This document shows, in pieces, positions 5,099 to 29,425 of a stretch of 34,311 nucleotides of DNA. Below the pieces are notes generated by a model, which saw only the letters and a program-made list of their open reading frames with translations, was not told the origin of the DNA and did not search any database. The stretch spans positions 1 through 34,311 of the IMG/VR virus record IMGVR_UViG_3300042563_000455; one strand, given 5' to 3'. Origin of the DNA: a virus. Each line of letters opens with the position of its first letter. The first letter of the stretch is position 1. The position numbers were made by a program, and so were the translations under genes.

Positions 5099-8000
5099 AT
5101 GGCAATAAGTAATCTATTAACGGGCAGGGTAAGGGTTGTAAGCCCGAAAAATGTAACATCTGACAGGTATCAATTCTTGGATTTATCTCAAGCAGAGCCG
5201 AATTTGGGTGTTCCTAGCTTTTCTGCATCATTATTAACGAATCCTGCTATTGTAGTTTCGGATAGTGAAGGTAATAGAGGATTTGCAAGAACAATTAGTT
5301 TAGACCAAATTTCAGGTTCTTTTTCTGGTTCATTTCAAGGGGATGGTAGTAACTTAACAAATCTACCTGCAGCAATTAGAATAGCTAGTGGTTCAGCAAC
5401 TGCATCTTTTATAGGAGGCAATTTAGTTGTAAATACAAATACAACAGTTCAAGGAAATTTAATTGTAAGAGATTCTATATTTGCAGAACAATTAGTAGTA
5501 TCTTATATTTCATCATCTGTAATATATTCATCGGGTTCAAATAAGTTTGGAGATGATATATTAGATATACAACAAATAACTGGTTCACTTAATATTAGTG
5601 GTAGTGTTATAATAACTGGTTCTCTTAAAGCCCAAGAAATAACAGGTTCTGTATCTGGTGCATTTACTGGAGATGGTGCTGGATTGTTTAACATTCCTCG
5701 TTCTGCATTTAGTGGTGATTCATTTAGAATAGCTAGTGGTAGTGTAACTGCTTCCGTAGACCCTACATATGGATTTAAAGTTGAATCGGCATTAAGTGGT
5801 TCTGAATTTACTGGTAGTGTGGATATTAGTGGTAGTATATCAGCATCGTTATTTATTGGAGATGGTAGAGGATTATTTAATTTACCAGCTTTAACAGCAA
5901 CATTAATAGCAAGTGGTTCTGCAACTGCATCTATCGCACCAAACACTGGATTGGTTGTAAATACATTCTCAACATTCCAATTTCCAGTATCCGCATCAAT
6001 GTTTAGTGGTAGTGGTAAGGGATTATTTGATATTCCACAATCAGCTTTAGCAGAGGATGCAACTTTAATAGCAAGTGGTAGTGTAACGGCATCGGTATCA
6101 CCTAATTTTGGATTTAGAGTAGAATCTGCTACGGTTGGTTCTCAGATAACTGGTAGCATGTTTGTTACTGGTAATATTCAATTGGGTGTTGGTGGTGTTT
6201 ATTCTGGTAGTGGTGCAAGATTATTCGATATACCACGTTCAGCATTAACTCCGGATGCATTGGTAGCAACATTAATAGCAAGTGGTAGTGTAACGGCATC
6301 AACATCTCCGGATTTTGGATTTAAAGTAATATCTGCACAAAGTGGTTCTAGTTTTACTGGTAGTTTATTTGTAAGTGGTGGAATTGAAATTAATTCTGGT
6401 TCATCTTACTCTGGTAGTGGTGCTAGATTATTTGATATTCCAGTAAGAGCATTAAGAGATTTAGACTTATCTAAGATTTCAAGCGGTTCGGCAACGGCAT
6501 CAATTTCTCCTGATAAAGGATTGGTGGTAAATACATTCTCTACATTTAGTGGAAGTATGCTTATTTCAGCATCTAAGCAATATTTTCCATCCGAATCTAT
6601 ACAAACTGTATTTAACGTAACTAATAATGATAATTTAAATTATAATTTTACTGGGGCAGCTATTGGTTCGAATCCAACATTAACATTAGTAAGAGGTATA
6701 ACTTATATTTTTAATTTAAATGTAAGCGGACATCCTTTTCAAATAAAAACAATTAATACAACCGGAACAAACGATTTATATAATACGGGTGTAACGAATA
6801 ATGGAGGTCAAGTTGGTACTTTAATATTTGCAGTACCATCAAATGCACCTGATAGACTTTATTATATTTGTCAATTCCATGCATCTATGGCTGGTACTAT
6901 TAATATAGTAGATGGATTATTGCAAAAAGGTGATGGTGTTACCATAACAGGAAGTTTGGATGTTAGTGATATTATTAGAGCTAGAGAATTTACTGGCTCA
7001 TTTAGTGGTTCGTTTTTCCAAGGTGATGGTGGGGGATTATTTAATATTCCAAGAGCAGCATTTACTGGAGATTCTCCTAGAATAGCAAGTGGTTCTGTAA
7101 CGGCTTCTGTAAGTCCTGATGATGGGTTTTTAGTAAAATCAGTTGAAAGTGGTTCAACTTTTAGTGGGTCTGTTGATATTAGTGGTTCTTTAATTATATT
7201 TGGAAATTTAATTGGACAAGAAATTAGTGGTTCAAGCTTTAGTGGTTCATTTCAAGGAGATGGTAGTAGATTAACAAATATAAACGTACCACCTCAAGTT
7301 GCAACAAAGATAGTATCTGGTTCGGTAACAGCTTCTGTAAGTCCTGATTCTGGATTCGTAGTAGTATCTTCTGATAAAGGTTCTCAATTTACTGGTAGTA
7401 TATTTTTAAGTGGTAGTATATTTGGAAATTCAAGTATAGAAATATCCAGTGGTTCGTTTAGCGGTAGTGGTGCTAGATTATTTGATATACCAAGAGCAGC
7501 TTTAACGCCAGATGCTTTATTATCTACTGAAATAAAAAGTGGTAGTGTAACGGCATCGGTTAGTCCTGAATTTGGATTTAAAGTATTATCTGCGGAAAGT
7601 GGTTCTCAATTTACTGGTAGTTTATTTGTTAGTGGTAATATATCATTAGCAAGTGGTTCATCTTATTCTGGTAGTGGTAAAAATTTATTTGATATCCCAC
7701 TATCAGCATTGGCAAACTTAGACCTTTCTAAAATTTTCTCTGGTTCGGCAACTGCATCAATTTCTCCTGATAGAGGATTTGAGGTATTCGCTTCAGTATC
7801 AAACTTTTCTGGTTCAGTATCAGCATCCGTATTTAGTGGTAGTGGTAAAGGATTAACAGATATTCCATTTTCAGCGTTATCAGAAGAATTAAAAAGAATT
7901 GCTAGTGGAAGTGTAACTGCATCGGTTTCTCCTGATGATGGATTTAGAGTAATATCAGCTGAAAGTGGTTCTCAATTTACAGGTTCTTTATTTGTAACTG

Positions 8001-11000
8001 GTGGATACATTAGAGTTGAGACTGGCTCATTTTTCTCTGGTTCTGGTGCTGGATTAAAAGATATTCCTAGAAACGCATTGACCGAAGATGCTTTAATATC
8101 TACCGAAATTAAAAGTGGTAGTGTAACTGCATCTGTTTCTCCTGATTTTGGATTTAGAGTAATATCAGCTGAAAGTGGTTCGCAATTTACTGGTAGTTTA
8201 TTTGTAACTGGTGGATATATTAGAGTTGAGACTGGTTCTTTCTTTAGTGGTAGTGGTGCTGGATTATCTGATATTCCTGAATCTGCATTATCATTTAAAA
8301 TTAATAGAATTGCAAGTGGTTCGGTAACTGCATCAATTTCGCCTGATTATGGGCTTAGAGTAAATACATTTTCTACAATTAGTGGAAGTTTTATAGTATC
8401 ATCTTCTGCAAGAGAATTAGCATATTCTGATATAGATACTGTATTTAACGTAACCAATGCTGGAAGTAGTGCATATAATATAAGTAATAGATTAGTAAGT
8501 GGTTCAAACCCAACTTTAACTTTAGTTAGAAATGTAAATTATACATTTAATGTAAATGCTAGTGGGCATCCATTTTGGATTAAAGATACAAATAGTACAG
8601 GTACTGCAAACTCATATGATACTTGGGTAACTAATAATGGTGATGATGTTGGTGTTATAACATTTTTAGTTTCAGGAAGTGCACCGAATACACTTTATTA
8701 TAATTGTCAATTACATGGTTCAATGGCCGGCACTATTAATGTAGTAGATGCATTATATGTTCCAGCAGAAATAAAATTAATTGGAGATACAAAAGTAATT
8801 GGTGTAGTAACTGCTTCTGTATTTAGTGGTAGTGGTAAAGGATTATTTGATATTCCTTTCTCAAATATTACTGGTGATGCAGTACGAATAGCAACTGGTA
8901 GTATAACAGCATCGGTATCACCACAAAAAGGATTTTTTGTTGAATCAGTTGAAAGTGGTTCATCTTTTAGTGGAAGTATTTTAATTGATTCATCTTCTTT
9001 TATTTATTCAGAAGGTACTTATTTACGAAATATTCCTCGTTCTGCATTAACTGAAGATGCATTAGCTTCATCTGAAATTAAATCAGGTTCAGTAACAGCA
9101 TCGGTATCTCCTGTATTTGGATTTATAGTAAAAACACCATTTACTTCATCAGTAAGTGAAAGTTTCTTTGTTACACAAATAGCATCTCAATTTACGGGTT
9201 CAATATCCGTATCTGGTAGTTTATTTGTAAATGATACAAGCGGAGGACTATTTATAGATTCATCATCATTTATATTTGCTGATGGAACATATCTTAGAAA
9301 TATTCCTCGTTCTGCATTAACTGAAGATGCACTATTATCATCGTTTATTGTATCTGGTTCAGTAACGGCATCTGTAAGTCCTGATTTTGGATTTAAAGTA
9401 ATAGCAACTAATATATTTAGTGGTTCTGAGTTTGGTTCTCAATTTACTGGAAGTGTTGATGTAAGTGGAAGTGTTAGAGCATTTAGATTTATAGGAGATG
9501 GTTCTCAAATTACAAATGTACAAGCGGCAGCATCACCTTTAATAGCAAGTGGTTCTGCAACGGCTTCGGTAGCTAGTGGTGATACTTTTGTAGTTACAAC
9601 CGGTGCAACTGGTTCTGGCTTAAATTATCAAATTGGTACTCGTATAACTGGTAGTGTTGATGTTAGTGGTAGTTTAAAAGCTCAATTTATATTAGGTGAT
9701 GGTAGATTTATAACAAACGTACAAGCGGCAGCTGCACCATTCATTGGTAGTGGTTCTGCAACTGCATCGGTTCAAAGTGGTGATTCCTTTGTAGTAACAA
9801 CTGGAGCAACTGGTTCGGCCATTGGTTCTAGATTTACGGGTTCAATTGACGTAAGTGGTAGTGTTAGAGCATTTTCATTCATTGGAGATGGTTCTCAATT
9901 AACGAATGTACAAGCATCTGCAGCTCCATTAATAGCAAGTGGTTCTGCAACGGCATCCGTTCAAAGTGGAATACAATTTGTAGTAACAACGAATGGTGTA
10001 TTCTCAAGTGTAGGTTCTAATTCTGGTTCTTATTATGGTTCTATATTCACTGGTTCGGTAAGTATTAGTGGTTCGATATCATCATCTCGTTTTGAAGGTG
10101 ATGGTGGTGGATTGTTTAATATCCCAGCATCGGCATTAGAAGATTTACAATTAAGTATAATTCAATCTGGTTCTGGTAGAGCAATTGTAGACCCAGAAAA
10201 ATTAGATGTAAACGTACCTATAACAGCTGCATTATTTATTGGTGATGGTGGTGGATTATTTAACATTCCGGCAAACGCATTACAAGACCTTAAATTAGAT
10301 AGAGTTATATCTGGTTCGGTTGAAGGTGTGATATCTCCAAATAAAGGATTTGAAGTAAATACATCTGTAAGAATATTCTCTGGTTCACTAACTGTGAGTG
10401 GTTCGGTATTTGTTAGTGGTGGAAATGTAATAGCAGCATCTGGTTCTTCATTTATTGGAGATGGTAGTGGATTAAGAAATATCAATATCGCTAATTTAGC
10501 ATTTGAAACTTCTCTATTACAATCTGGTTCTGTAACTGCACAAATCTCTCCAAATTTAGGATTAGTTGTAAATACATCAGCATCTATACAAGGTGATTTG
10601 AATGTATTGAATAAAATATTAGTAAATAATATTACGGCAAGTAATGTTATTAAATCTCAATTATTTACCGGTTCATTCTTAGGTACATATAATTTCCAAG
10701 GAGTTGGGGCTACGGCTAGTGCAGAATATGATATTTTAAGATTCAATCCAACACAAGGATATTTCATACCTCAGCCGGAAACATCATTAACTGAAACAGT
10801 AGCATTTAATAATGTAAGTAATTTAACTATTGTACACAATTTGGGTATAAAATATCCAATGGTTCAGGTGTACGCTACTGGTTCTGAAGACCAAATTTTA
10901 CCTGGAACAATAAAATCAATTGATGATGATACTATACAAATTGTATTTAGTGGATTAACATCTGGACATGTTGTAATTGGTAGTGGTGGTTCTTTAATAA

Positions 11001-14000
11001 ATGGAACTATTAATGGAGATAGGGTATTTGGTGAAGTTTATTCGGCATCTTATGCTAGGAGAGCAGCTTTAGCAGACGCTGTAACTGGATTTGATTCGGC
11101 ATCGTTGGTAGCATTATCAGCATCGTTATCAAATGCAAACGCTTATGTAAGAAATGACCAAACAGCTTCAATGGCTGTTTTAAATTCTAAATTTGCAGAA
11201 ACTGCATCATATGTAGCTGATTTAAGTAATCTTAATTTAACTGATTATGTAAGAAATAGTAGAACATCTTCAATGACTGTTGGTACTGCTTCTTTAGCAA
11301 TTACCGCATCATATGCATTATTTGCACAAAATGCATCAAACGTTGATACGGCTAACTTTATACAAAATTTCCAAACCGCATCAATGAGAGTTGGTACGGC
11401 TTCATTGGCAATATTTGCATTTACCGCATCATACGCTTTAAATGCAGCTGGAAGTGATACTTCATCGTTCTTACAAATTAATACTGACCAAACTTTTAGA
11501 GCATCTTTAGTAGTTAGTGCTAGTTTGGGTGTGAGTGGTAGTGTATTTTTTGGAAATTTACCATCTGCATCATATGAGCAAGTAGTAATATGGGATACAG
11601 TAACAAAAAAATTAGGATATAGAAATATAGCAGCAGCTGTGGGTTCATCTGGTACATCAGGAACTTCTGGTATAAGTGGAACGGATGGTACATCAGGAAC
11701 TTCTGGTACAAGTGGTACAAGCGGTACTTCTGGGACTTCTGGAACATCTGGAGTAGATGGTACATCAGGAACTTCTGGTACATCAGGAACTTCTGGTACA
11801 TCAGGAACTTCTGGAACTTCTGGATTAGATGGTACATCAGGAACTTCTGGTACATCAGGAACATCAGGAACTTCTGGTACATCAGGAACATCAGGAACTT
11901 CTGGAACTTCTGGAACTTCTGGAACATCGGGAACTTCTGGAACATCTGGAACATCGGGAACTTCTGGAACATCTGGGACATCGGGAACTTCTGGAACATC
12001 AGGCACAAGCGGAACATCTGGAACATCAGGCACAAGCGGAACATCAGGAACTTCTGGAACTTCTGGAACATCAGGAACATCAGGAACAAGCGGTACAAAT
12101 GGAACTGCAGGAAGTGGTGGTTCATCAGGAACTTCTGGAACATCAGGAACTTCTGGAACATCAGGAACTTCTGGAACATCGGGAACAAGCGGTACAAATG
12201 GTTCTGCTGGTACAGCAGGTACTTCTGGTACATCGGGTACTTCAGGAACTTCTGGTTCTAATGGTAGTAGTGGTACTTCGGGAACTTCTGGTACATCGGG
12301 AACTTCTGGTACATCGGGAACTTCTGGTAGTGGTGGTGATAGTGGTAGTAGTGGAACATCTGGTAGTGGTGGTTCTTCTGGTACATCTGGAACAAGTGGT
12401 ACATCTGGTTCAACTGGTTCAGATGGTACATCAGGAACTTCTGGTACATCCGGCTCAGCTGGACAAGATGGTACATCGGGAACTTCTGGTTCATCAGGAA
12501 CTTCTGGTTCAACTGGTTCGGCTGGAACTTCAGGTACATCGGGAACTTCTGGAACTTCTGGAACATCAGGAACTTCTGGTTCGGATGGTACATCAGGTTC
12601 ATCTGGTACAAGCGGTACATCGGGAACTTCTGGAACAAGCGGTACATCTGGTACAAGTGGTAGTGACGGTTCATCTGGTACAAGTGGTACTAGTGGTAGT
12701 AGTGGTACTTCGGGAACTTCGGGAACTTCTGGTACATCGGGAACATCGGGCACAAGTGGTAGTGATGGTTCATCTGGTACAAGCGGTACATCAGGAACTT
12801 CTGGTACAAGCGGCGTTGGTACTGATGGTACATCTGGTACATCAGGAACTTCTGGAGAAAGTGGTTCATCTGGAACTTCAGGCACATCTGGTACAAGTGG
12901 CACAAATGGTAGTGCTGGTTCAAGTGGTACAAGTGGTGTTGGTACTGATGGTACATCAGGAACTTCAGGAACTTCTGGAGAAAGTGGTTCATCAGGAACT
13001 TCTGGAGCAAGTGGTACATCGGGAACTTCAGGTACAAATGGTTCAGCTGGTACATCCGGTACAAATGGTTCAGATGGAACTTCTGGAACATCAGGAACTT
13101 CTGGTAGTGATGGAACAAGCGGTACAAGCGGCACAAGTGGTAGTGATGGAACTTCTGGAACATCTGGAAGTGGTGGTACAAGTGGTACATCAGGAACATC
13201 TGGATTAGATGGAACTTTCTTTGGTAGTAGTGGTACTTCTGGTACAAGCGGTACAAGTGGCACATCAGGAACTTCAGGAACTTCTGGAGAAAATGGTTCA
13301 TCAGGAACTTCTGGTTTAAACGGAACATTCTTTGGTAGTAGTGGTACAAGCGGCGTAAGTGGTTCTGATGGTACATCGGGAACATCAGGAACTTCTGGAG
13401 AAAATGGCTCATCGGGAACTTCTGGAGAAAATGGTTCTTCTGGAACTTCTGGATTAAATGGTACATTCTTTGGTAGTAGCGGTACTTCTGGAACATCGGG
13501 AGAAAGTGGAAGTAGTGGAACGAGTGGAATAAATGGTACGGATGGTACTAGCGGAACTTCAGGAACTTCTGGATTAAACGGAACTTTCTTTGGTTCTTCA
13601 GGAACTTCTGGTATAAATGGTACTGATGGTACGTCTGGTACAAGTGGTACAAGTGGTACATCGGGAATAAATGGTACTGATGGTACTTCAGGAACTTCTG
13701 GATTGAATGGTACAATGTTTGGAAGTAGTGGTACTTCTGGAATAAGTGGTACTTCAGGTACTTCTGGAGAAAGTGGTTCTTCTGGAACTTCTGGAACTTC
13801 AGGAACTTCTGGTTTAAATGGTACAATGTTTGGAAGTAGTGGAACATCTGGTTTTGATGGTACTTCTGGTACAAGCGGAGCTGGTACATCTGGAACTTCT
13901 GGAGAAAGTGGTTCATCGGGAACTTCTGGTTTAAATGGTACAATGTTTGGAAGTAGTGGTACTTCTGGAGAAAGTGGTTCATCGGGAACTTCTGGTTTAA

Positions 14001-15208
14001 ATGGCACGGATGGTTCATCAGGAACTTCTGGTACATCGGGAACATCAGGAACTTCTGGATTAAATGGAACTTTCTTTGGAAGTAGTGGTACAAGTGGTAC
14101 TTCAGGAGTAAGTGGAAGTAGTGGTACTTCTGGAACTTCTGGAACTTCTGGTTCGGCTGGAACTTCTGGTTTAAATGGTACAATGTTTGGAAGTAGTGGT
14201 ACTTCTGGAACATCGGGTACTTCCGGAGTAAGTGGTACATCGGGCACATCTGGTATTTCTGGGACAGCAGGAACTTCTGGATTGAATGGTACTATGTTTG
14301 GTAGTAGTGGTACAAGCGGCACATCAGGAACTTCTGGAGTATCTGGTTCTGCTGGTACATCGGGAACTTCAGGTACATCAGGAACTTCTGGATTAAATGG
14401 TACAATGTTCGGTTCATCAGGAACTTCTGGAATAAGTGGTACGGCTGGAACATCGGGAACGTCTGGATTAGGAACTTCTGGAACTTCTGGTACATCAGGA
14501 ACTTCTGGTGTTAATGGTACATTCTTTGGTAGCAGTGGTACGAGTGGTATTAATGGTGAAACTGGCGCTTCCGGTTCTTCTGGTACATCAGGTACAAACG
14601 CTCCGGGATTTTCATCTGGTACTTCTGGTAGTGGTGGTGCAAATGGTACTTCTGGATTAAATGGTACATTCTTTGGTTCATCTGGGACTAGTGGTGCAAA
14701 TGGTACATCGGGTACTAATTCACCGGCATTTTCATCTGGAACTTCTGGTACAAATGGATTTTCTTTGGTTGGAACAACCAATGATGGATTATTAACTTAC
14801 ACAAATGCACCCGTTGGTGCAACTGTTGAAAGTAATATAACATTTGATGGTACGAATTTAGCAGTAGTAGGTAACGTAATATCAACAACATATAGAGAAA
14901 CATTTAATGATTTAGGAACTGGTGGAAGTGCAACATTGGATTTATCAACAGCAAACAACTTTAGAAGACAATTTAACGGAACTGCAACAATAACAATAAC
15001 AAACGCACCTAATTCTCCAATTGGATTTGGATTTACATTAGTAACCGTAAATGCCGGAGCATATGCAATTACTTGGCCTGCTAGTGTTGATTGGGTTGGT
15101 GGAAGTGCGCCAATACTTACTTCTTCTGGAACTGATGTTTTAGTATTCTACACTTATAATGGTGGAACATCTTACTATGGATTTGTAACAGGTAAAAACT
15201 TAAGTTAA
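5099..15208 (+). CDS. Giant tail fibre with cupredoxin domains and Gly-Thr-Ser shaft
   Basis: A 3369-residue virion fibre. The N-terminus (LLTGRVRVVSPKNVTSDRYQ, then LDLSQAEPNLGVP) matches fibre or structural proteins I know from marine phages. Residues ~90-2130 contain about 22 copies of a short beta unit centred on SGSVTASVSP, alternating with FTGS and GDGxGLFNIP motifs. Two cupredoxin-like domains interrupt these (~500-607 and ~1111-1218), each with a His...Cys-x2-His-x2-Met ligand set. A HNLGIKYPMVQVY domain lies near 1900. Residues ~2182-3220 are Gly-X-Y triplets, mostly Gly-Thr-Ser, with 13 xNGTFFGSS/NGTMFGSS-type blocks. The last ~140 residues (AYAITWPASVDW, GTDVLVFYTYNGGTSYYGF) form a recognised phage fibre C-terminal tip. 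It probably makes a very long trimeric fibre on the virion surface. It is almost three times the size of T4 gp34. No chaperone or protease domain is present at its end, unlike the fibre at 17259. Confidence 0.85.
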   Translation: MAISNLLTGRVRVVSPKNVTSDRYQFLDLSQAEPNLGVPSFSASLLTNPAIVVSDSEGNRGFARTISLDQISGSFSGSFQGDGSNLTNLPAAIRIASGSATASFIGGNLVVNTNTTVQGNLIVRDSIFAEQLVVSYISSSVIYSSGSNKFGDDILDIQQITGSLNISGSVIITGSLKAQEITGSVSGAFTGDGAGLFNIPRSAFSGDSFRIASGSVTASVDPTYGFKVESALSGSEFTGSVDISGSISASLFIGDGRGLFNLPALTATLIASGSATASIAPNTGLVVNTFSTFQFPVSASMFSGSGKGLFDIPQSALAEDATLIASGSVTASVSPNFGFRVESATVGSQITGSMFVTGNIQLGVGGVYSGSGARLFDIPRSALTPDALVATLIASGSVTASTSPDFGFKVISAQSGSSFTGSLFVSGGIEINSGSSYSGSGARLFDIPVRALRDLDLSKISSGSATASISPDKGLVVNTFSTFSGSMLISASKQYFPSESIQTVFNVTNNDNLNYNFTGAAIGSNPTLTLVRGITYIFNLNVSGHPFQIKTINTTGTNDLYNTGVTNNGGQVGTLIFAVPSNAPDRLYYICQFHASMAGTINIVDGLLQKGDGVTITGSLDVSDIIRAREFTGSFSGSFFQGDGGGLFNIPRAAFTGDSPRIASGSVTASVSPDDGFLVKSVESGSTFSGSVDISGSLIIFGNLIGQEISGSSFSGSFQGDGSRLTNINVPPQVATKIVSGSVTASVSPDSGFVVVSSDKGSQFTGSIFLSGSIFGNSSIEISSGSFSGSGARLFDIPRAALTPDALLSTEIKSGSVTASVSPEFGFKVLSAESGSQFTGSLFVSGNISLASGSSYSGSGKNLFDIPLSALANLDLSKIFSGSATASISPDRGFEVFASVSNFSGSVSASVFSGSGKGLTDIPFSALSEELKRIASGSVTASVSPDDGFRVISAESGSQFTGSLFVTGGYIRVETGSFFSGSGAGLKDIPRNALTEDALISTEIKSGSVTASVSPDFGFRVISAESGSQFTGSLFVTGGYIRVETGSFFSGSGAGLSDIPESALSFKINRIASGSVTASISPDYGLRVNTFSTISGSFIVSSSARELAYSDIDTVFNVTNAGSSAYNISNRLVSGSNPTLTLVRNVNYTFNVNASGHPFWIKDTNSTGTANSYDTWVTNNGDDVGVITFLVSGSAPNTLYYNCQLHGSMAGTINVVDALYVPAEIKLIGDTKVIGVVTASVFSGSGKGLFDIPFSNITGDAVRIATGSITASVSPQKGFFVESVESGSSFSGSILIDSSSFIYSEGTYLRNIPRSALTEDALASSEIKSGSVTASVSPVFGFIVKTPFTSSVSESFFVTQIASQFTGSISVSGSLFVNDTSGGLFIDSSSFIFADGTYLRNIPRSALTEDALLSSFIVSGSVTASVSPDFGFKVIATNIFSGSEFGSQFTGSVDVSGSVRAFRFIGDGSQITNVQAAASPLIASGSATASVASGDTFVVTTGATGSGLNYQIGTRITGSVDVSGSLKAQFILGDGRFITNVQAAAAPFIGSGSATASVQSGDSFVVTTGATGSAIGSRFTGSIDVSGSVRAFSFIGDGSQLTNVQASAAPLIASGSATASVQSGIQFVVTTNGVFSSVGSNSGSYYGSIFTGSVSISGSISSSRFEGDGGGLFNIPASALEDLQLSIIQSGSGRAIVDPEKLDVNVPITAALFIGDGGGLFNIPANALQDLKLDRVISGSVEGVISPNKGFEVNTSVRIFSGSLTVSGSVFVSGGNVIAASGSSFIGDGSGLRNINIANLAFETSLLQSGSVTAQISPNLGLVVNTSASIQGDLNVLNKILVNNITASNVIKSQLFTGSFLGTYNFQGVGATASAEYDILRFNPTQGYFIPQPETSLTETVAFNNVSNLTIVHNLGIKYPMVQVYATGSEDQILPGTIKSIDDDTIQIVFSGLTSGHVVIGSGGSLINGTINGDRVFGEVYSASYARRAALADAVTGFDSASLVALSASLSNANAYVRNDQTASMAVLNSKFAETASYVADLSNLNLTDYVRNSRTSSMTVGTASLAITASYALFAQNASNVDTANFIQNFQTASMRVGTASLAIFAFTASYALNAAGSDTSSFLQINTDQTFRASLVVSASLGVSGSVFFGNLPSASYEQVVIWDTVTKKLGYRNIAAAVGSSGTSGTSGISGTDGTSGTSGTSGTSGTSGTSGTSGVDGTSGTSGTSGTSGTSGTSGTSGLDGTSGTSGTSGTSGTSGTSGTSGTSGTSGTSGTSGTSGTSGTSGTSGTSGTSGTSGTSGTSGTSGTSGTSGTSGTSGTSGTSGTSGTSGTNGTAGSGGSSGTSGTSGTSGTSGTSGTSGTSGTNGSAGTAGTSGTSGTSGTSGSNGSSGTSGTSGTSGTSGTSGTSGSGGDSGSSGTSGSGGSSGTSGTSGTSGSTGSDGTSGTSGTSGSAGQDGTSGTSGSSGTSGSTGSAGTSGTSGTSGTSGTSGTSGSDGTSGSSGTSGTSGTSGTSGTSGTSGSDGSSGTSGTSGSSGTSGTSGTSGTSGTSGTSGSDGSSGTSGTSGTSGTSGVGTDGTSGTSGTSGESGSSGTSGTSGTSGTNGSAGSSGTSGVGTDGTSGTSGTSGESGSSGTSGASGTSGTSGTNGSAGTSGTNGSDGTSGTSGTSGSDGTSGTSGTSGSDGTSGTSGSGGTSGTSGTSGLDGTFFGSSGTSGTSGTSGTSGTSGTSGENGSSGTSGLNGTFFGSSGTSGVSGSDGTSGTSGTSGENGSSGTSGENGSSGTSGLNGTFFGSSGTSGTSGESGSSGTSGINGTDGTSGTSGTSGLNGTFFGSSGTSGINGTDGTSGTSGTSGTSGINGTDGTSGTSGLNGTMFGSSGTSGISGTSGTSGESGSSGTSGTSGTSGLNGTMFGSSGTSGFDGTSGTSGAGTSGTSGESGSSGTSGLNGTMFGSSGTSGESGSSGTSGLNGTDGSSGTSGTSGTSGTSGLNGTFFGSSGTSGTSGVSGSSGTSGTSGTSGSAGTSGLNGTMFGSSGTSGTSGTSGVSGTSGTSGISGTAGTSGLNGTMFGSSGTSGTSGTSGVSGSAGTSGTSGTSGTSGLNGTMFGSSGTSGISGTAGTSGTSGLGTSGTSGTSGTSGVNGTFFGSSGTSGINGETGASGSSGTSGTNAPGFSSGTSGSGGANGTSGLNGTFFGSSGTSGANGTSGTNSPAFSSGTSGTNGFSLVGTTNDGLLTYTNAPVGATVESNITFDGTNLAVVGNVISTTYRETFNDLGTGGSATLDLSTANNFRRQFNGTATITITNAPNSPIGFGFTLVTVNAGAYAITWPASVDWVGGSAPILTSSGTDVLVFYTYNGGTSYYGFVTGKNLS
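6599..6919 (+). other. Cupredoxin-like domain 1 with full type 1 copper ligand set
   Basis: Residues ~500-607 of the giant fibre. Motifs are PTLTLVRGITYIFNLN, SGHPFQIK, a VTNNGG turn and LYYICQFHASMAGTI. The candidate ligands are His545, Cys591, His594 and Met597. The C-x2-H-x2-M loop matches the amicyanin-type spacing of blue copper proteins. Metal binding is inferred from these residues; the fold assignment is by motif only. Confidence 0.65.
8432..8752 (+). other. Cupredoxin-like domain 2 with full type 1 copper ligand set
   Basis: Residues ~1111-1218 of the same fibre. It shares PTLTLVRNVNYTFNVN, SGHPFWIK, WVTNNGDD and LYYNCQLHGSMAGTI with domain 1. Candidate ligands are His1157, Cys1203, His1206 and Met1209. 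The His-to-Cys distance is 46 residues in both domains, while the rest of the sequence has diverged. This implies duplication with retention of the site. Confidence 0.65.
11641..14757 (+). repeat. Gly-Thr-Ser triplet array (9/18-bp coding repeats)
   Basis: About 3.1 kb of 9-bp GGN-ACN-TCN/AGY codon triplets, often paired into an 18-bp unit that alternates codons. Three perfect 18-bp copies lie at about 11759-11812. From 13201 onward the array is punctuated by 13 blocks encoding NGTFFGSS or NGTMFGSS (one with L-D, one with V-N in front). The protein is proline-poor, unlike animal collagen; a collagen-like trimer or a polyglycine-II bundle are both possible. The same array recurs at 17886-19310. 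Confidence 0.9.
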
Positions 15209-17258: not shown

Positions 17259-20200
17259 ATGGCGTTTAACGGTAATAATCCAAATGGTTTAAATCAGACT
17301 AGTGTAAATAGTGTATCACTTTTTGTAAGTGGTTCTCCTATTTTAAATGCCTCATCTGAATCTGTTAATATTGTAGGAAATTTTAGTTCTTCTGCAGTAC
17401 AAACAAATGTAATTGGAGTAATTGGTACATCACCACTTCAAATAAAAGCAAATACCCAAATTAGTGGCTCTTTTAATATTTCATCATCAATATCAGCATC
17501 TTTGTTTAGAGGAGATGGTAGTGGATTGTTTAATATATCAGCTACATCAATTGGTGATTTGGATAGATTAAAATCAGGTTCAGCAACGGCAATAATTTCT
17601 CCAAATAAAGGTTTAGTAGTTAATACTGATTTAACAGTAGCTGGTACAATAAATGCAACTGAATTAAAAGTAACTTACATTTCATCATCAATAATATACG
17701 CAAGTGGTTCATCAAAATTTGGTGATGCTCAAACTGATAAGCAAGAATTTACTGGAAGTGTTGGTATTACTGGTTCATTAACATTTGGTGTTGGCTCTTT
17801 ACCGCAAGATGGTAGTACAAATGAAGTTTTAGTTTATAATACAACAACTGGTAGGGTTGGTGTAAAAACAGCAGCAGCAACATCAGGAACATCTGGTACT
17901 TCTGGAACATCGGGAACATCAGGAACATCTGGTTCATCTGGTACATCGGGTTCATCAGGAACTTCTGGTTCTCAGGGTTCGTCTGGAACTTCTGGAACAT
18001 CAGGAACTTCTGGAACATCAGGAACTTCTGGTTCAACTGGTTCGGCTGGCACATCAGGAACTTCTGGAACATCAGGAACTTCTGGAACATCAGGAACTTC
18101 TGGTACAAGCGGTAGTAGTGGTACAAGTGGTACATCGGGAACTTCTGGAACATCAGGCTCAACAGGTAGTAGTGGTACAACGGGTTCGGCAGGAACTTCT
18201 GGAACATCAGGAACTTCTGGAACATCAGGAACTTCTGGTACAAGCGGTACATCTGGACTAAGTGGTAGTAGTGGAACAAGCGGTACGAGTGGTTCATCGG
18301 GAATAAGTGGTACAAATGGTACGGGTGGTACAACTGGTACAGCTGGTACATCGGGAACCTCTGGAAGAAGTGGTAGTAGTGGTACTTCGGGAACTTCTGG
18401 AACTGCAGGAAGTGGTGGTATAACTGGTGGTGGCGGTTCAAATGGAACATCAGGAACTTCTGGTAGTAGTGGGACAAGCGGTACAAGTGGAACGAATGGA
18501 ACGGCTGGTAGTGGAGGTTCATCGGGAACTTCAGGTATAACTGGAGCCGGTGGAGGAAGTGGTTCATCGGGAACTTCGGGAACAAGTGGAAGTAGAGGTA
18601 CATCAGGAACTTCTGGTTCATCAGGAACTTCTGGTTCATCTGGAACTTCTGGAATAAGTGGTAGTGGGGGTTCATCGGGAACTTCAGGAACTTCGGGAAC
18701 AAGTGGAAGTAGAGGTACATCAGGAACTTCTGGAGCACAAGGTTCATCGGGTTCAGCAGGAACATCAGGAACATCAGGAACTTCTGGAGCACAAGGTTCA
18801 TCGGGTTCAGCAGGAACATCAGGAACTTCTGGTACATCTGGAATTTCAGGTTCGGCAGGTACATCGGGAACATCTGGAACTTCTGGAGCACAAGGTTCTT
18901 CTGGTTCAGCAGGAACATCTGGAACTTCTGGAGCACAAGGTTCTTCTGGTTCAGCAGGAACTTCTGGTACAAGTGGTAGTAGAGGCACTTCAGGAACTTC
19001 TGGTATAAGTGGTAGTAGTGGGACTAGTGGTAGTAGTGGGGTGAGTGGTTCGGCTGGAACTTCAGGAACTTCTGGTACAAGTGGTTCGGCTGGAACTTCT
19101 GGTACAAGTGGTAGTAGAGGTACTTCAGGAACTTCTGGTACAAGTGGCTCATCGGGAACTTCTGGAGTAAGTGGTTCTGCTGGTACAAGCGGTAGTAGTG
19201 GTACTTCTGGTTCTTCTGGAACTTCTGGAAGTAGTGGTACTTCTGGTTCTTCTGGAACTTCTGGAAGTAGTGGAACATCAGGTACGCGTGGTACATCTGG
19301 TACATCTGGATTATTAGCATTAACTGGTACAACTGATAATGGTGTAATCACACTAAATGGTTCAGCTCCTAACGGAACTGTTGAAGCAAATTTAAGATTC
19401 GATGGTACTACATTAGCAGTAACTGGTAACGCTACAATTAGTGGTGACCTTACTGTAAGTGGTACAACAACATATATTAATACAACAACTCTTAACGTAG
19501 GTGATAATATCCTTACACTTAACGCAGATATTGGAGCATCAACTGCACCAACTGAAAATGCAGGTATAGAAGTTAAGAGAGGTAATGCAGCAACGAAAGC
19601 ATTTTATTGGGAAGAAGCAAATGATAGATGGTATGCCGAAGATGGTCTTTATGTAGCAGGTAATGTAGTTCTTAGTGGAACTGTTGATAGTGGACAAGGA
19701 GCAACTGAAGTTCATTTAATGAACCAAAATGTTCGTACAACTGATTCACCATCATTCAATAGAATAACATCAACTGTAGCAACTGGTACATCACCATTAG
19801 CAGTATCATCTACAACTTTAGTTAGTAACTTAAACTCTGATTATTTAGGTGGACAACAAAATTCATCATTCTTTAGAAATTTAAGTGGAGGTACTGGTAC
19901 TAGTATTGATACTTATGTTGATAATGGATTTAGAACCTTAAGTTATACAGGATATAGTTCTGGATTGTGGTCTACTAATATGGGTGGTTCTACTGGAACA
20001 GTTCAAATGGAGTTTGAATATAATACTCCTGTTAGAGGATTCAAAATAAGAAATAGAACGGATAATACATCTTGGTCATCGGTTGGATGGGTAACTATGA
20101 CAACTGCAAATCAAGGACATATTGCTGGAACAATTTGGCATAGTGCAAATGATGGAACTGGTACTGGATTGGATGCGGATTTATGGGATGGTTACCAATT

Positions 20201-23200
20201 CTCAGATTATTTAAACCAACCGGTTAGAACAACTGATAACGTAACACATAATAGACTAACATTAGGAGTTGCAACTGGTACATCTCCATTGGTAGTTTCA
20301 TCAACTACATTAGTATCAAGCCTCAATTCAGATTTATTGGATGGGCAAGAAGGTACTTATTATGACCAAAGACAATATACAAGAGCAGATAACTATTTAG
20401 GTGGTTATTATGTGAGTGGTGGTAGTGAAAAACCAAACAACGCTATATTTGGAGCTGGTAAGTTTAAGGTAGCAATGTTATCCAGTGGTAATTTAGGATT
20501 TAGTGGTCCTTGGAGTGATGTGTTATGGACAAGTACATATAGTGGTGGTGATGTTAAGAGTAGTTTCGCTATTGTAAGTGACAAATACTCAGAAAATGTT
20601 TTCTTCGCAAAACAAGCATTTGATTCGGCAAATTGGGGAAGTGGTAGATTAGTTCTTACTGATTTCAATTCTCCATATGCATATTATATGAATCAGTATG
20701 TTCGTACAACCGATTCTCCTACTTTTAATGATTTAACAGTAACAGGTAGAGCTGTAATTGGTGGTAACTTTAGTAATCAGGCATATAGTTCAGTAGGTTC
20801 TACTAGATTACATTTTGGTGGTGGTGATAGTGATGCAAATAGTAATTACTACATTGGTACTAATATAGAAAATTTTGGAGGTTCATATACCAAATTAGAT
20901 TTAAGATGGCACACTGGTATTCGTATGGGTGCACAACCTGGATATGGTGGAGTTCGTTTCTATAATAATGAAGATTTAGATGCAGTTATTTTATCAGTTG
21001 GTACTAGTGATGCAAACGTTAAAGTAACAAATAGTTTAATAGCTGGAAGTACTGGTACTCCTCAAGCTACTATACAAGCCGTTGGTAATTTAAGATGGTC
21101 TTCTGGTGGTAACTCATATTACACTTATAGTGATATGGATAGTGGCGGTCTTTATATTGAGACTGTTGATAATGGCACCAGCCGTGCAAAAATGAGATTC
21201 CAAACTAGACCATCAAACTCTGGAGCATATACAACATATCAAATTGATGCTAATAACAACGCTCATTATTGGAGTATTAATGGAACAAATTATTTAACAT
21301 TAGATACTGGTAATTTGAATGTAAACAATGCCGGTTTAATTGTAAATGGTTTAGCAAGATTCAATAGTAGTGGCGCTCCGTTTATGAGATGGCATAATAC
21401 ATCTGCATCTGGATATATGTTATTGGGAATGTATGATGATAATAGTACTCAAAGAGTTTGGTTTGGTATGGGTGGTAGAACACAATCTTTTGGTTCTTAT
21501 GCAGCATATTCTACTGATGGATTATCTATGAATTTAGATGGAGCTGGGGCAATTAATATATCAAATAGAGGTTCATCAAAAAGAATCAATTTAAATACTG
21601 GTACTGAAGGTGCATCGAATTTTACTACATTAAGAATGGTAAATCAGGAAGTATATGTAACGCCTGATTCGGTAAATGGTAATTTACGTTCACCACTATA
21701 TTATGTTTCGGATGATACAACTTATTTATGGAATAGTAATAGAATAGTAGTAAACCAAGTAACATTCCCTTATAGAGAATGGGATTATAGTTGGGGAGCT
21801 CATGGTACTGGTAGTGGTACTCAATCAATGTCCTTTAGAATGTGGGATAGTTACACTCAAAGTGGAGCACCTTCATCTTATGGTACATTAATTGAATATT
21901 ATGGATTAGGTGGGCATCAACATGACCAATACTATTTCTATCAGGGTGAAATTCTTCATAGATACGGATGGTATGGTACTACGAACTGGCAAAGTGGGTG
22001 GAGAGCAATGTTGCATGCTGGAAACTATTCTGGATACGCAATTCCTATTAGTGGTGGTATAAATATGACTGGTTCTTATGGTTTAAATGACCAAAGATTA
22101 TATCTAAGAACTAACGGAGATACCAATCACTTTATATGGAATGCGGATGATGATTGGGAAGAAATGAGATACTATTTTGGAACTGGATTTAGAGTTCAAA
22201 GTAGTAATGGTGTAACATCGGCAACATTTACAAATAGTGGTATTAACGCCGTTAATATGACCATTGGTGGCGCACAAGTTTGGTATAATAGTGGTGGTTG
22301 GTTAGGTGATTTAGCATCTTATGGATTTACTAGAGCTTGGGGACATGCTATGTCTGGGGGTTCTGAATTTGTAATCCTATATAAAGGTGGACAAGGATAT
22401 ACATTAGTTGATGGCTCTTATTACGCTTACGAAGCAGGTGGATTCTATTCATCAAATAACTCAGCAGGAAACACATTATTAGGATTTAATGCAGATAGTA
22501 CATCTTCTGTTAGATTTAATTCGGCAGTTAGAATTGGTACAAACAATAACCTTTACTTAGATTACAACTACGGACAATCTGTTGTAGGTGTTTATACATC
22601 TACTAGATATCAGGGTGTATTCGCAATGGGTGATTCATATAAATTAGCAATTGATGGTTCATCTCCTGGTTCTTTATATGGTTTAGCTTGGTCACATCCA
22701 AACGCTGGAGGACAAGCTGGATTCTTAAATGACCACGGATTATTGGTAATGAACTATGGTACTACATTCGCAGCAATTTCTTCTAGAATTTGGGCAAGAG
22801 ACCAAATGAACGCACCAATCTATTACGATAGAGATACTGGTTACTATTTTGATGGTAACGGAAATACTAACTGGCAAGGTTTGACCGATTATGGTAAAAT
22901 GAGAATTGGACAGACTGCAAAAGGTAACTTCCGTAGAAATGATTATACTGGGGATTCTAACTATTGGGTAGGTTCAATGGGTTGGGGTACAACTGACCTT
23001 ATTTCAGTATTTACTTGGGGTAGTGGATTCTTTGATACGTGGAGTAACCCAGCTAACCAACCCGCTGGTACATCTCACTGGACTGGAGTTCAGGCACTTC
23101 ACTATGTAAGTTCATATAATAGTGGATATGGGTGGCAATTAGTTGGTGGACCTATTGAAGGTGCATGGTGGACATCTTATTGGAGTTCAAAGCGTGCTTG

Positions 23201-25644: not shown

Positions 25645-28011
25645 ATGGCAGAAAGAATCGTATCACCGGGAGTTTTCACAAGAGAAAATGACCTTTCATT
25701 CTTAGCACAAGGTGTAGGAGAAATCGGAGCAGCATTTATAGGACCTTTTAAGCAAGGACCTGCATTCGTACCTACAATTGTGAGAACCCAATCAGAGTTC
25801 GAAGATATCTTCGGTACTCCTGATGGAACTTATTATACTGAATATGCAGTACAAAACTATTTAAGAGAAGCTGGACAAGCAACAATCGTAAGAGTTGCTG
25901 GTATTGGTGGATATCAACAATTAGCACCTTTAGGTATCTTAGCATCTGGTTCTACTAATGGAGTAGGACAAAAATTTGTTGGGGTACTTTATTCAACTAA
26001 TTTTGGTGATGAAAAAGTAGGTTTTACAAATGCATCAACTAATATCACAAGTAGTGCAGAAGGCGAGGGTAGTTTCGTAATTTCTGGACTAATTAGTTCA
26101 GGTTCTGGCGCAGCTAACATATCAGCATCTATATTAAGTACAGCTACTAATGATTTAGCAGACGTATTTGGTGAATCTGCATTTGGTGCTAAAGCAGCAT
26201 ACGCTTATAATTTCTTTGAAAACGTTGCATTATCCTACACTGGTTCTGGTGCTAATGGTACTAATAAAACTGTAATTAGTGAGGTAACATTACCAACTCA
26301 AACTTATGGTGATGCACAAGAAGCTGAAACTCCAATTGTTCAATCTCAATTAATTAGTGGTGAAAGATATAACCTATTCCAATTTAAAACTATTGGACAT
26401 GGTACATTATACAATACTAAATTTAAAGTTGGTATTTCTAATGTAAAAGCAGCTGGTGAAGATGGTTCGACTGATTATTCAACATTTACTGTAACAATTC
26501 GTTCATATAGTGATACTGATAAGAGAAAGAGTGTTGTTGAAACATTTAACAATGTAAACTTAGACCCTGCTTCTCCAAACTATATTGCTAGAAGAATTGG
26601 TGATAGATATTTCACAATTGATTCTAATGGTAAAATTACTGAATATGGTGATTATACATCAAAATCAAAATATGTAAGAGTAGTAGTTCAGGATGCAAAC
26701 GCTAATATTTTAGGACCTGGTTCTTATCCAATATCAGCAGCACCATTTGGACATGAAGCATATACAAATCCAATCAAAACAAATTCTACAACAGAAGATG
26801 GATGGGTGCCTGCAGTAACTTATCAAACTGGTTCAGCAAATAACACATCATCATCTCCAATTTATTATAGTGGATTTGATTTTGAAACATCTGGTGTATC
26901 AATGGATAATAAACAATATTTGAAACCAATTCCTGTTGGAGCTAAATCTGGAGCAAACGTAGCATTCGCATTTGATTCTCAATTGAATTATGTAATGACT
27001 GGTTCAGCATCAACTGATATGGTTAAGAGACAATTTGTATTAGGATTCCAATTTGGATTTGATGGTACTAACCCAACTGTAAAGATAGCTAAGGCTGGCG
27101 ATACTGATTGGGGTAATGCAAATCAGCAAGGTTTTAATTGCGCAACTTCAACATCATCTGGTTCAGTAGCATATACAAAAGCAATCAACGCTGTATCTAA
27201 TCCTGATGAGTATGATATCAATATGGTAGTAACTCCTGGTATTGTAAGACAATTACATCCGGCTATTACTTCTAAAGTAATTGATATGGTTGAAGAAAGA
27301 CAAGATTGTTTCTACATCGCTGATTTCAACGATTACGATGATACAATTACTGAAGCAACTGAGCAAGCAAATTCAGTAGATTCAAACTATGTAGCAACTT
27401 ACTATCCTTGGGTTAAAACAATCGATAGTAACACAAATAAATTAACTTCAGTTCCACCATCAGTATTGATGCCGGCTGTATTCGCTTCTAATGATAGATT
27501 AGCAGCTGAATGGTTCGCACCTGCTGGTTTGAATAGAGGTGGTATCACTGGAGCAGTTAGTGTATTAAATAGATTAACGCACGCTGAAAGAGATACTCTT
27601 TATGAGAACAAAGTAAACCCAATCGCAGCATTCCCTGGACAAGGTATTGTAGCATTCGGACAGAAGACATTGCAAGATAAGGCATCTGCTTTAGATAGAA
27701 TCAATGTTAGAAGATTACTTATCACTCTTAAGAAGTTTATCGCTTCAACATCTCGTTTCTTAGTGTTCGAACAAAATACATCTACGACTAGAAATAGATT
27801 CTTAAATACTGTTAATCCTTATTTAGAGTCTGTACAACAAAGACAAGGTCTTTATACATTCAAAGTTGTAATGGATGAAACTAACAACACACCGGATGTG
27901 ATTGATAGAAACATATTAGCAGGACAAATTTTCTTACAACCGGCTAAGACAGCGGAATTTATCGTAATAGATTTCAACATCTTACCAACTGGAGCAAGTT
28001 TCACAGCATAA
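25645..28011 (+). CDS. Contractile tail sheath protein (T4 gp18-like)
   Basis: A 788-residue sheath subunit; it polymerises around the tube and contracts to drive it through the host envelope. The N-terminus (RIVSPGVFTRENDLSF, then GAAFIGPFKQGPAF and YAVQNYLREAGQATIVRVAG) is the classic gp18/sheath start. The C-terminal domain from ~520 (EYDINMVVTPGI, LMPAVFASNDRLAAEWFAPA, NRLTHAERDTLYENKVNPIA, RRLLITLKKFI, TAEFIVIDFNILPTG) holds the conserved sheath core (PF04984/PF17482-type). At 788 residues it is ~130 longer than T4 gp18 (659). The extra length appears to lie in the middle, the part that protrudes outward in T4. It has a strong Shine-Dalgarno and is followed by the tube gene after 51 bases. 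Identification is firm. Confidence 0.96.
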   Translation: MAERIVSPGVFTRENDLSFLAQGVGEIGAAFIGPFKQGPAFVPTIVRTQSEFEDIFGTPDGTYYTEYAVQNYLREAGQATIVRVAGIGGYQQLAPLGILASGSTNGVGQKFVGVLYSTNFGDEKVGFTNASTNITSSAEGEGSFVISGLISSGSGAANISASILSTATNDLADVFGESAFGAKAAYAYNFFENVALSYTGSGANGTNKTVISEVTLPTQTYGDAQEAETPIVQSQLISGERYNLFQFKTIGHGTLYNTKFKVGISNVKAAGEDGSTDYSTFTVTIRSYSDTDKRKSVVETFNNVNLDPASPNYIARRIGDRYFTIDSNGKITEYGDYTSKSKYVRVVVQDANANILGPGSYPISAAPFGHEAYTNPIKTNSTTEDGWVPAVTYQTGSANNTSSSPIYYSGFDFETSGVSMDNKQYLKPIPVGAKSGANVAFAFDSQLNYVMTGSASTDMVKRQFVLGFQFGFDGTNPTVKIAKAGDTDWGNANQQGFNCATSTSSGSVAYTKAINAVSNPDEYDINMVVTPGIVRQLHPAITSKVIDMVEERQDCFYIADFNDYDDTITEATEQANSVDSNYVATYYPWVKTIDSNTNKLTSVPPSVLMPAVFASNDRLAAEWFAPAGLNRGGITGAVSVLNRLTHAERDTLYENKVNPIAAFPGQGIVAFGQKTLQDKASALDRINVRRLLITLKKFIASTSRFLVFEQNTSTTRNRFLNTVNPYLESVQQRQGLYTFKVVMDETNNTPDVIDRNILAGQIFLQPAKTAEFIVIDFNILPTGASFTA

Positions 28012-28062: not shown

Positions 28063-28551
28063 ATGGCAGAAATATTAGAGTTTGATAAGATGTTCTATAC
28101 GAACTTCGAACCGAAGATGAAAAATAGATATGTGATGGAGATTGAAAACATCCCTTCATATCTTGTAAAGGCAGCAAATAGACCCACAATTCAATTTGAA
28201 ACAATTACTTTAGACCATATCAACGTAAAGAGAAAGTTAAAAGGTAAAGGTGAGTGGCAAGATGTAAGTATCACTTTGTATGACCCAATTGTACCTTCGG
28301 CAGCACAAGCGGTAATGGATTGGGTTCGTTTAGGACATGAATCAATTACTGGTAGAGATGGATACGCTGATTTCTATAAAAAAGATATCACTTTCTATAT
28401 GTTGGGACCTGTTGGTGATAAGATTGAACAATGGACTTTAAAAGGTGCATTTATTTCTCAGGCTAACTTTGGTGATTTATCGTTTGATTCTAATGAACCT
28501 GCAACAATAGAATTAACATTAGCTTACGATTACGCAATCTTAGAATTCTAA
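28063..28551 (+). CDS. Tail tube protein (T4 gp19-like)
   Basis: A 162-residue protein, close to T4 gp19 (163 residues). It forms the rigid inner tube through which DNA passes. Recognisable features are a KMFYTNFEPKMKNRYVMEI start, NRPTIQFETITLDHINVKRK, WQDVSITLYDPIVPSAAQAV and a C-terminal NEPATIELTLAYDYAILEF, the usual gp19 pattern. It directly follows the sheath, as in most contractile phages, and is followed by a strong terminator at 28570-28598. An AGGA ribosome-binding site precedes the ATG. Identification is firm. Confidence 0.95.
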   Translation: MAEILEFDKMFYTNFEPKMKNRYVMEIENIPSYLVKAANRPTIQFETITLDHINVKRKLKGKGEWQDVSITLYDPIVPSAAQAVMDWVRLGHESITGRDGYADFYKKDITFYMLGPVGDKIEQWTLKGAFISQANFGDLSFDSNEPATIELTLAYDYAILEF

Positions 28552-28660: not shown

Positions 28661-29425
28661 ATGAACGAAAGAGAATATGATTTTCCAACCGAAGTGTTGG
28701 ATTTACCATCTCAAGGTAAATTGTATCCAAAGGATAATCCGTTATCATCTGGTAGAATCACAATTAAATGTATGACTGCAAAGGAAGAAGATATCCTTTC
28801 CAATCAAAATCTTATTAAAAAAGGTGTTGTTTTGGATAAATTGTTTGAATCAATTATAGTTGATAATGGTGTAAATTCAAAAGATATTTTAATTGGTGAT
28901 AAAAACGCAATTTTATTAGCAACTAGATTATTAGGATATGGTCCTGATTATAATTTTAAATTTTATTCAAATGTTACTGGCGATGTAATATCAACAACTA
29001 TTGATTTGGCAAAAATCCAAACAAAAGAAGTAGATATGTCAGTATTCAATAATAAAAACGAATTTGATTATACAACACCATTTGGTAAAACAAAATTAAC
29101 ATTCAAATTATTAACTCATGGTGACGAAATTGCTATTGAGAAAGATATTGAAGGAATGCAAAAAATAAATAAAGAGTTTTCTGGTGAAATTACTACTAGA
29201 TTACGTTATATGATTAAAAGTGTAGAAGGTGATACATCTTTAGGTGCAATTACAAAGTATTTAAATAATATGTTAGCTAGAGATAGTAAAGCATTCAGAG
29301 AATATGTTAAAACTATATCTCCTGATGTTGATATGTCATTTACATATACCCACAGAGATGGAGAAAAGGAGGTAAGTCCGATTCCAATGGGCGTAGGGTT
29401 TTTTTGGCCTAGCTCAGAATCATAG
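28661..29425 (+). CDS. Baseplate/tail assembly chaperone-like protein (PF12322, gp26/gp51 type)
   Basis: A 254-residue protein. The start (YDFPTEVLDLPSQGKLYPKD, then ITIKCMTAKEEDILSNQNLI) and a LLATRLLGYGPDYNFKF segment match the T4 baseplate protein family (gp26/gp51-like), also called a tail assembly chaperone in relatives. It is needed for building the baseplate or tail and is usually not abundant in virions. It occupies the slot between tail tube and tape measure, where tail chaperone pairs sit in many phages. It ends with FFWPSSES-stop, and a second open frame continues from 29397 with what looks like the missing C-terminal part of this family (see 29433-29624). A run of seven T lies at 29399-29405. 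The family call is good. Whether the product stops here or continues by frameshift is open. Confidence 0.85.
   Translation: MNEREYDFPTEVLDLPSQGKLYPKDNPLSSGRITIKCMTAKEEDILSNQNLIKKGVVLDKLFESIIVDNGVNSKDILIGDKNAILLATRLLGYGPDYNFKFYSNVTGDVISTTIDLAKIQTKEVDMSVFNNKNEFDYTTPFGKTKLTFKLLTHGDEIAIEKDIEGMQKINKEFSGEITTRLRYMIKSVEGDTSLGAITKYLNNMLARDSKAFREYVKTISPDVDMSFTYTHRDGEKEVSPIPMGVGFFWPSSES

Follow-up and report, generated by a model that had tools for sequence, protein, structure and literature searches.

Type 1 cupredoxins such as rusticyanin, AcoP, plastocyanin, amicyanin and the first domain of the Hyphomicrobium nitrite reductase have a common fold and carry their copper ligands in the order His, Cys, His, Met (HCHM), the Cys ending a strand and the second His and the Met lying in the following loop. 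In amicyanin this loop has the spacing C-x2-H-x2-M, and in plastocyanin, azurin and amicyanin Asn occupies the position after His. In cyanophage gp9-type connectors (phrog_677; T4-GC 398) the C-terminal ~110 residues form a domain with the same ligands. A metal in a phage fibre, with a proposed role in host contact, has already been published for iron: in the accessible text of PMC11705849, HxH motifs of T4 gp37-type fibres and of Alteromonas phage R22Y form an octahedral iron site. We analysed a 34,311-nt stretch of DNA from an aquatic phage (IMG/VR record IMGVR_UViG_3300042563_000455, positions 1 to 34,311; hereafter the window) in which one tail fibre open reading frame (ORF) contains two predicted cupredoxin domains, each probably with an intact type 1 copper site and forming a copper-binding module of the virion. 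These domains differ from the cupredoxins named above in sitting in a phage fibre, in reaching no more than 25% identity in the VIA-align rows and in having His-Pro rather than His-Asn. With gp9-type connectors the fibre shares the domain alone, and unlike the iron-binding fibres it places four ligands in one domain and has no HxH.

The ligand residues reported in the initial annotation, H545/C591/H594/M597 and H1157/C1203/H1206/M1209, are present, with 46 residues from His to Cys in both domains (Table 1). Its statement that most other positions diverge was wrong, as domains 1 and 2 share 59% protein identity. The whole fibre has two Cys, both of them ligand Cys, and four of its six His (545, 594, 1157, 1206, 1913 and 1957) are ligand His; no pair among the six lies two residues apart, as the HxH motif of iron fibres would demand. 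Judged against the composition of the fibre, the two occurrences of C-x2-H-x2-M are far beyond chance (1.7e-5 expected). The comparison with an amicyanin-type loop also held, the same spacing being found C-terminally in the solved copper nitrite reductases 9cck (CTLHPWM) and 6hbe (CSIHPYM). A multicopper oxidase is ruled out, since a fibre with six His in total has no second copper cluster, and for the window a host-derived plastocyanin acting as a metabolic gene is ruled out by the position of the domain inside the fibre ORF.

Table 1. Features of the window, with positions counted from its first letter; domain and ligand assignments are predictions.
Feature	Position	Strand	Basis or remark
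Tail fibre ORF carrying both cupredoxin domains	5099..15208	+	3369 aa; PHROG and Pfam matches
Cupredoxin domain 1 (fibre residues 505-606)	6611..6916	+	model, phrog_677, PDB fold matches
His545 codon, first ligand	6731..6733	+	model residue 45, loop ahead of strand 47-50
Cys591 codon, ligand	6869..6871	+	model residue 91, end of strand 86-91
His594 codon, second His ligand	6878..6880	+	model residue 94, loop
Met597 codon, axial ligand position	6887..6889	+	model residue 97, just ahead of strand 98-104
Cupredoxin domain 2 (fibre residues 1116-1218)	8444..8752	+	59% identity to domain 1; phrog_677
His1157 codon	8567..8569	+	motif position, domain 2
Cys1203 codon	8705..8707	+	motif position, domain 2
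His1206 codon	8714..8716	+	motif position, domain 2
Met1209 codon	8723..8725	+	motif position, domain 2
Collagen-like Gly-Thr-Ser repeats, same fibre	11642..14717	+	repeat reading, Pfam Collagen
Tail sheath gene (context: contractile tail)	25645..28011	+	
Tail tube gene (context)	28063..28551	+	
T4-type baseplate gene (context)	28661..29425	+	PF12322, phrog_150

Positions 6599-6931 were modelled with AlphaFold2 (model m200cbdbd2fc2) from an alignment of 75 rows that combined both window domains with relatives from viruses. The domain 1 model has eight strands and a predicted local distance difference test (pLDDT) score of 95.1. Foldseek placed AcoP first among PDB structures (7z3g, E 7.2e-5), and the 50 PDB matches listed are cupredoxin-fold proteins, either by name or by what we take to be their membership. 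VIA-align gave a Z of 10.6 for 2dv6_A (Hyphomicrobium nitrite reductase, residues 25-137; root-mean-square deviation (rmsd) 2.7 over 95 residues) and of 10.2 for rusticyanin 2cal (rmsd 2.3 over 94 residues), all at identities of 25% or less. The cupredoxin fold, one of the tests proposed in the initial annotation, was thus borne out, and on this model domain 1 almost certainly adopts it. Read from the secondary structure of the model, the predicted site follows the type 1 order, with the Cys at the end of a strand and His and Met in the next loop. A relative that has FCQM at the four positions, and so neither His (L123), was likewise modelled as a cupredoxin (pLDDT 96; Z 10.4 and rmsd 1.9 over 90 against rusticyanin); as modelled, the cupredoxin fold does not need the His pair. 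In BFVD, giant-virus 'beta-sandwich proteins' from Pithovirus LCPAC302 and LCPAC304 and Marseillevirus LCMAC201 and LCMAC202 also match the domain 1 model (E 6e-8 to 2e-6).

In profile searches of PDB, type 1 or multicopper proteins made up, by our own count, 18 of the 21 matches of profile A5 (best E 0.0028) and 19 of the 23 matches of profile A2. Both domains matched the C-terminal part of phrog_677 (E 1.5e-27 for domain 1, 2.6e-24 for domain 2), the match spanning only profile positions 299-411 of 412 and not a whole-length gp9. Against the Pfam copper families neither domain reached the cut-off: domain 1 gave only PF25489 (At5g54830-like; E 0.0069, 16.8 bits, cut-off 27), and for domain 2 the sole row was a weak one to COX3 (E 0.12).

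We then asked how the ligands fare among relatives. Our first viral scan (best 80 of 588 loci) used patterns that held ligand residues and was hence biased, so two ligand-blind samplings were made, one with a query that lies between the ligands (best 80 of 417 loci; the ligand-blind set below) and one with the first 300 residues of gp9 (best 80 of 546 loci). Ligands were counted with a ligand-masked profile, and hits that did not span the four ligand columns were excluded (6/83, 19/107, 0/132 and 1/19). The biased set had HCHM in 69 of 71 unique domains; the ligand-blind set had it in 54/75, with all four ligand columns covered. For the gp9 set the full domain was found in 76/80 loci and the value was 51 of 52 unique domains, the exception being a TCHM domain in a separate ORF of L211, where by eye the alignment puts a His one residue further on. 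Inspected by eye, 67 gp9 loci were complete, giving 46 unique tails, all with the motif, and 4 were incomplete. Among 19 phage records fetched, 18 had the full domain and 17 of these were HCHM. S-B43, which lies outside the set A3 described below and its tree, lacks His, Cys and His (FAVM).

Set A3 comprises 75 non-redundant domains, with loci of the first two scans mixed, and omits three of 76 non-redundant rows (L006, a copy of domain 1, L083 and L085). Sixty of its domains are HCHM, at pairwise identities down to 28%, and none of the other 15 lacks just one ligand. Twelve are without His, Cys and His jointly (two of them also without Met), two keep Cys without either His, and one has lost Cys and the second His but not the first. 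In covariation, out of 3570 variable column pairs, the first and second His (H1-H2) rank first, C-H2 third and H1-C fourth. On a tree computed with the ligand columns removed (97 columns; 18 of 72 inner branches starred), losses fall on shared branches in 5/5 cases for C-H2 and in 4/5 each for H1-H2 and H1-C, which are ranks 1-3 of 2415 pairs. In L027, L080, L114 and L134, the site has been lost from one domain but is intact in a second one of the same reading frame. Ligands that are retained are mostly retained as a set. The initial annotation had proposed that the ligand set is under selection and had named free loss of ligands by homologues as evidence to the contrary. Losses are not rare (21/75 unique ligand-blind domains) but they are coordinated, so that with this qualification the proposal withstood the check; covariation, shared loss branches and ligand counts support selection on the set as a unit, very probably as a metal site. 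Conservation alone was dropped as an argument, the ligand columns ranking 34 (H1), 33 (C), 38 (H2) and 11 (Met) of 96 in 75 relatives; the distinctive feature of His, Cys and His is their joint change. Recent duplication, with ligands persisting through inertia, was not accepted as the main explanation: domain 2 clusters with six HCHM domains of other contigs (100/96 support) and not with domain 1, and intact domains reach down to 28% identity.

The same residues might be kept for packing in a plain adhesion or spacer module that is free of metal. This would fit the L123 domain, which keeps its predicted fold without either His, the presence of ligand-poor domains in proteins that match virion families (five proteins scanned), and the fact that some other columns are better conserved than the ligands. 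However, residues distant from each other along the chain share their loss branches, the ligands co-occur in 60 domains of wide divergence, and a range of residues replaces them (Q, F, Y, S, L, V, D), with no single packing substitute. Because ligand losses are joint, metal-free packing is less likely, and we consider it improbable. A site that behaves as a selected unit and that the fold does not need would therefore most simply be a type 1 copper site, and we infer copper binding because ligand set and fold leave little else. The metal is likely to be copper, sitting in virions.

Several points weigh against this assignment. Only 3 of the 8 weak PDB matches of the A3 profile, which consists mostly of viral fibre domains, are copper proteins, and the ligand His of the domain motif is followed by Pro. 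The one ligand-poor domain modelled, L123, retains its Cys and lacks only the His pair. Because 21/75 unique domains of the ligand-blind set are without the full ligand set, metal appears from the sequences to be dispensable in some tails. The first His is kept in the HSDM domain of L114, Cys occurs without either His in 8 unique ligand-blind domains (7 FCQM, 1 YCQM), and the axial Met is retained in 13/15 A3 rows that lack the set, so that it says little about metal. The phylogenetic evidence is also limited: 9 of the 15 A3 rows without the full set form one clade, parsimony demands two Cys regains (7 changes, 5 of them losses), the tree has weak resolution, its starred branches alone forcing just one change of HCHM label, and a sign test on independent pairs is underpowered, with 1-3 pairs on supported branches. 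Relatives that keep Cys without His would also suit another use of these residues, as zinc ligands or in disulfides between subunits; in vitro, metals other than copper can occupy type 1 sites, and with one Cys per domain cross-chain disulfides are conceivable. A disulfide would not require both His, however, and pattern and fold fit copper sites, which leaves this explanation very improbable.

A family of proteins of ~1290 aa (where complete) carries a cupredoxin domain without both His and often without Cys, flanked by partial further copies. Its members are L123:2275-6132, L093, L096, L107, L116, L122, L126, L132, L136, L139, L142, L143, L145, L146, L158, L160, L161 and L164. The L123 protein, the only member scanned, matches the virion structural family phrog_10938. 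In L164, for example, the four positions read FSQM, so that His, Cys and His are all absent. By its sequences the family is probably a natural branch without copper.

In the favoured reading, the window domains are globular modules within the long fibre, presumably a trimer, of a phage with a contractile tail. The fibre would fold in the host cytoplasm without metal, and the site would pick up copper once lysis frees the virion, because the cytoplasm holds almost no free copper. Bound copper would then pin the loops that carry the ligands and stiffen one end of the module, and the stiffened module could provide the fibre with a surface for contacts or for a joint. The initial annotation had suggested stability, receptor contact or redox sensing at the host surface as possible roles. 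We favour such a loop-clamping contact role over redox or copper delivery only tentatively, at somewhat less than even confidence.

The domain recurs among phages. In tblastn searches of 50,697 phage records, domain 1 matched 273 and domain 2 matched 337, of which 267 and 331, respectively, are Synechococcus, Prochlorococcus or cyanophage by name. A gp9-type baseplate-fibre annotation was attached to 37 of the 60 domain 1 matches listed, and further phage fibres also contain the domain. Isolates with the domain include P-SSM2, S-SM1, syn9 and S-ShM2. It is present in the Autographiviridae genome P-SCSP2 and, in S-H9-1 (L266), at the end of a subtilisin-like protease gene; cyanophage proteins named subtilisin-like or S8/S53 peptidase match it in BFVD (A0A0E3F583, V5URI3). 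S-SCSM2R has a 168-aa stand-alone ORF named PetE (L083:3794-4300), directly following an S8 peptidase gene, in which the domain follows an N-terminus that is fibre-like by eye; this ORF is probably a structural protein and not a plastocyanin metabolic gene.

The gp9-type proteins also bear on a redox or electron-transfer device, in which Cu(I)/Cu(II) cycling at the host surface would change the fibre or a gp9-type joint and help trigger attachment or contraction. Type 1 sites are electron-transfer centres, gp9 is a joint in the T4 baseplate, and the domain is the C-terminal part of the cyanophage gp9-type connectors, in which the ligand set is retained almost throughout. Yet no electron partner is known, domains without ligands persist in proteins matching virion structural families, and both window domains sit within the N-terminal 40% of the fibre, away from any known joint. 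We regard such a device as unlikely.

A narrow scan of bacterial and archaeal genomes returned five loci, which by eye comprise three fibre- or gp9-like genes of metagenome-assembled genomes (MAGs) and two lipoprotein-like ORFs. The latter, L246:4878-5180 (149-aa ORF, Bdellovibrionales MAG) and L247:4872-5180 (517-aa ORF, Flavobacterium MAG), have the same domain with all four ligands, and in contrast to the window protein they look like secreted lipoproteins and not fibres. L246 is 59% identical to window domain 1, 58% to domain 2 and 56% to L247; among 58 genomes scanned from the class of the L246 genome, only that genome gave a match. The phage domain may have come from such cellular ORFs or been passed to them. 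The domain family extends beyond the window to gp9-type proteins, further fibres, one stand-alone ORF and a pair of bacterial ORFs. As the lipoprotein-like ORFs suggest, cell envelopes carry the fold too, which would suit a copper Trojan horse, in which copper-loaded fibres dock on a host receptor for copper uptake or on a cuproprotein receptor, by analogy with the iron proposal for T4-type fibres, published, in the text available, for phage tails (PMC11705849). No receptor has been identified, and the fibre's six His form no HxH motif of the kind seen with iron; we think this reading has little chance of being correct. Both it and the redox device assign other roles to the same copper module, whereas packing and zinc or disulfide use deny copper.

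The favoured copper module can be extended to a broader, rather doubtful proposal: that aquatic contractile-tailed phages, many sequenced cyanophages included, have fibres and baseplate-fibre joints equipped with sets of type 1 copper centres, loaded at lysis, and use copper or its redox state in host contact or triggering. Their virions would be the first known cuproprotein virions, and copper carriers in water.

The fibre itself is made up of repeated Gly/Ser-rich modules, the two globular inserts and a long collagen-like region, which matches the PHROG tail fibre families phrog_5073, 6320 and 1806 as well as Pfam Collagen. On the opposite strand, a 1178-aa open frame (11245-14781, −) covers the Gly-Thr-Ser repeats and is most likely a by-product of repeat composition. 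A second collagen-like fibre of 2455 aa (17259-24626, +) does not have phrog_677 among its 24 PHROG matches listed. The phage is contractile-tailed, since the window holds sheath, tube and T4-type baseplate genes; for the last, PF12322 is borderline (24.6 bits against a cut-off of 24.5) and phrog_150, a baseplate hub family, gave E 5.2e-6. Among annotated relatives, the sheath gene comes closest to those of Microcystis phage Mel-JY01 (46.5% over 99%) and of Flavobacterium phages (48.9% over 59%). Close to the baseplate gene are two large ORFs (29936-32308 and 32320-34149, +; 790 and 609 aa) with no PHROG match at E 0.001. The 34,311-base record is likely a fragment.

A cupredoxin domain in a phage tail protein was not found in the literature searched, which mostly lacks subscription journals and preprints. 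In the portions of text available, PMC3037559 treats plastocyanin solely as a metabolic gene and leaves gp9 unmentioned, PMC10436341 deals with petE as a metabolic gene, PMC4535781 with host halocyanins and PMC9605863 with Borgs, and PMC8115048 covers viral NirK and uses gp9 only as a marker; the last four, like the available part of PMC10792529, are unrelated to the fibre domain. The domain may already carry a label from automatic annotation; the name PetE in S-SCSM2R points that way.

Cupredoxins are well known; a predicted copper-site cupredoxin in a phage tail protein appears, against the literature searched, to be new. Natural versions without ligands, found beside an intact domain in four proteins, provide built-in controls. 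If the proposal is true, the gp9-type domain, so far annotated as a tail connector only, would gain a testable role, and a second metal would join the debate on iron in phage tails, and post-lysis uptake of metal by virions would be suggested. Should copper occupy the sites, a widespread class of phages from marine and fresh waters would be copper proteins.

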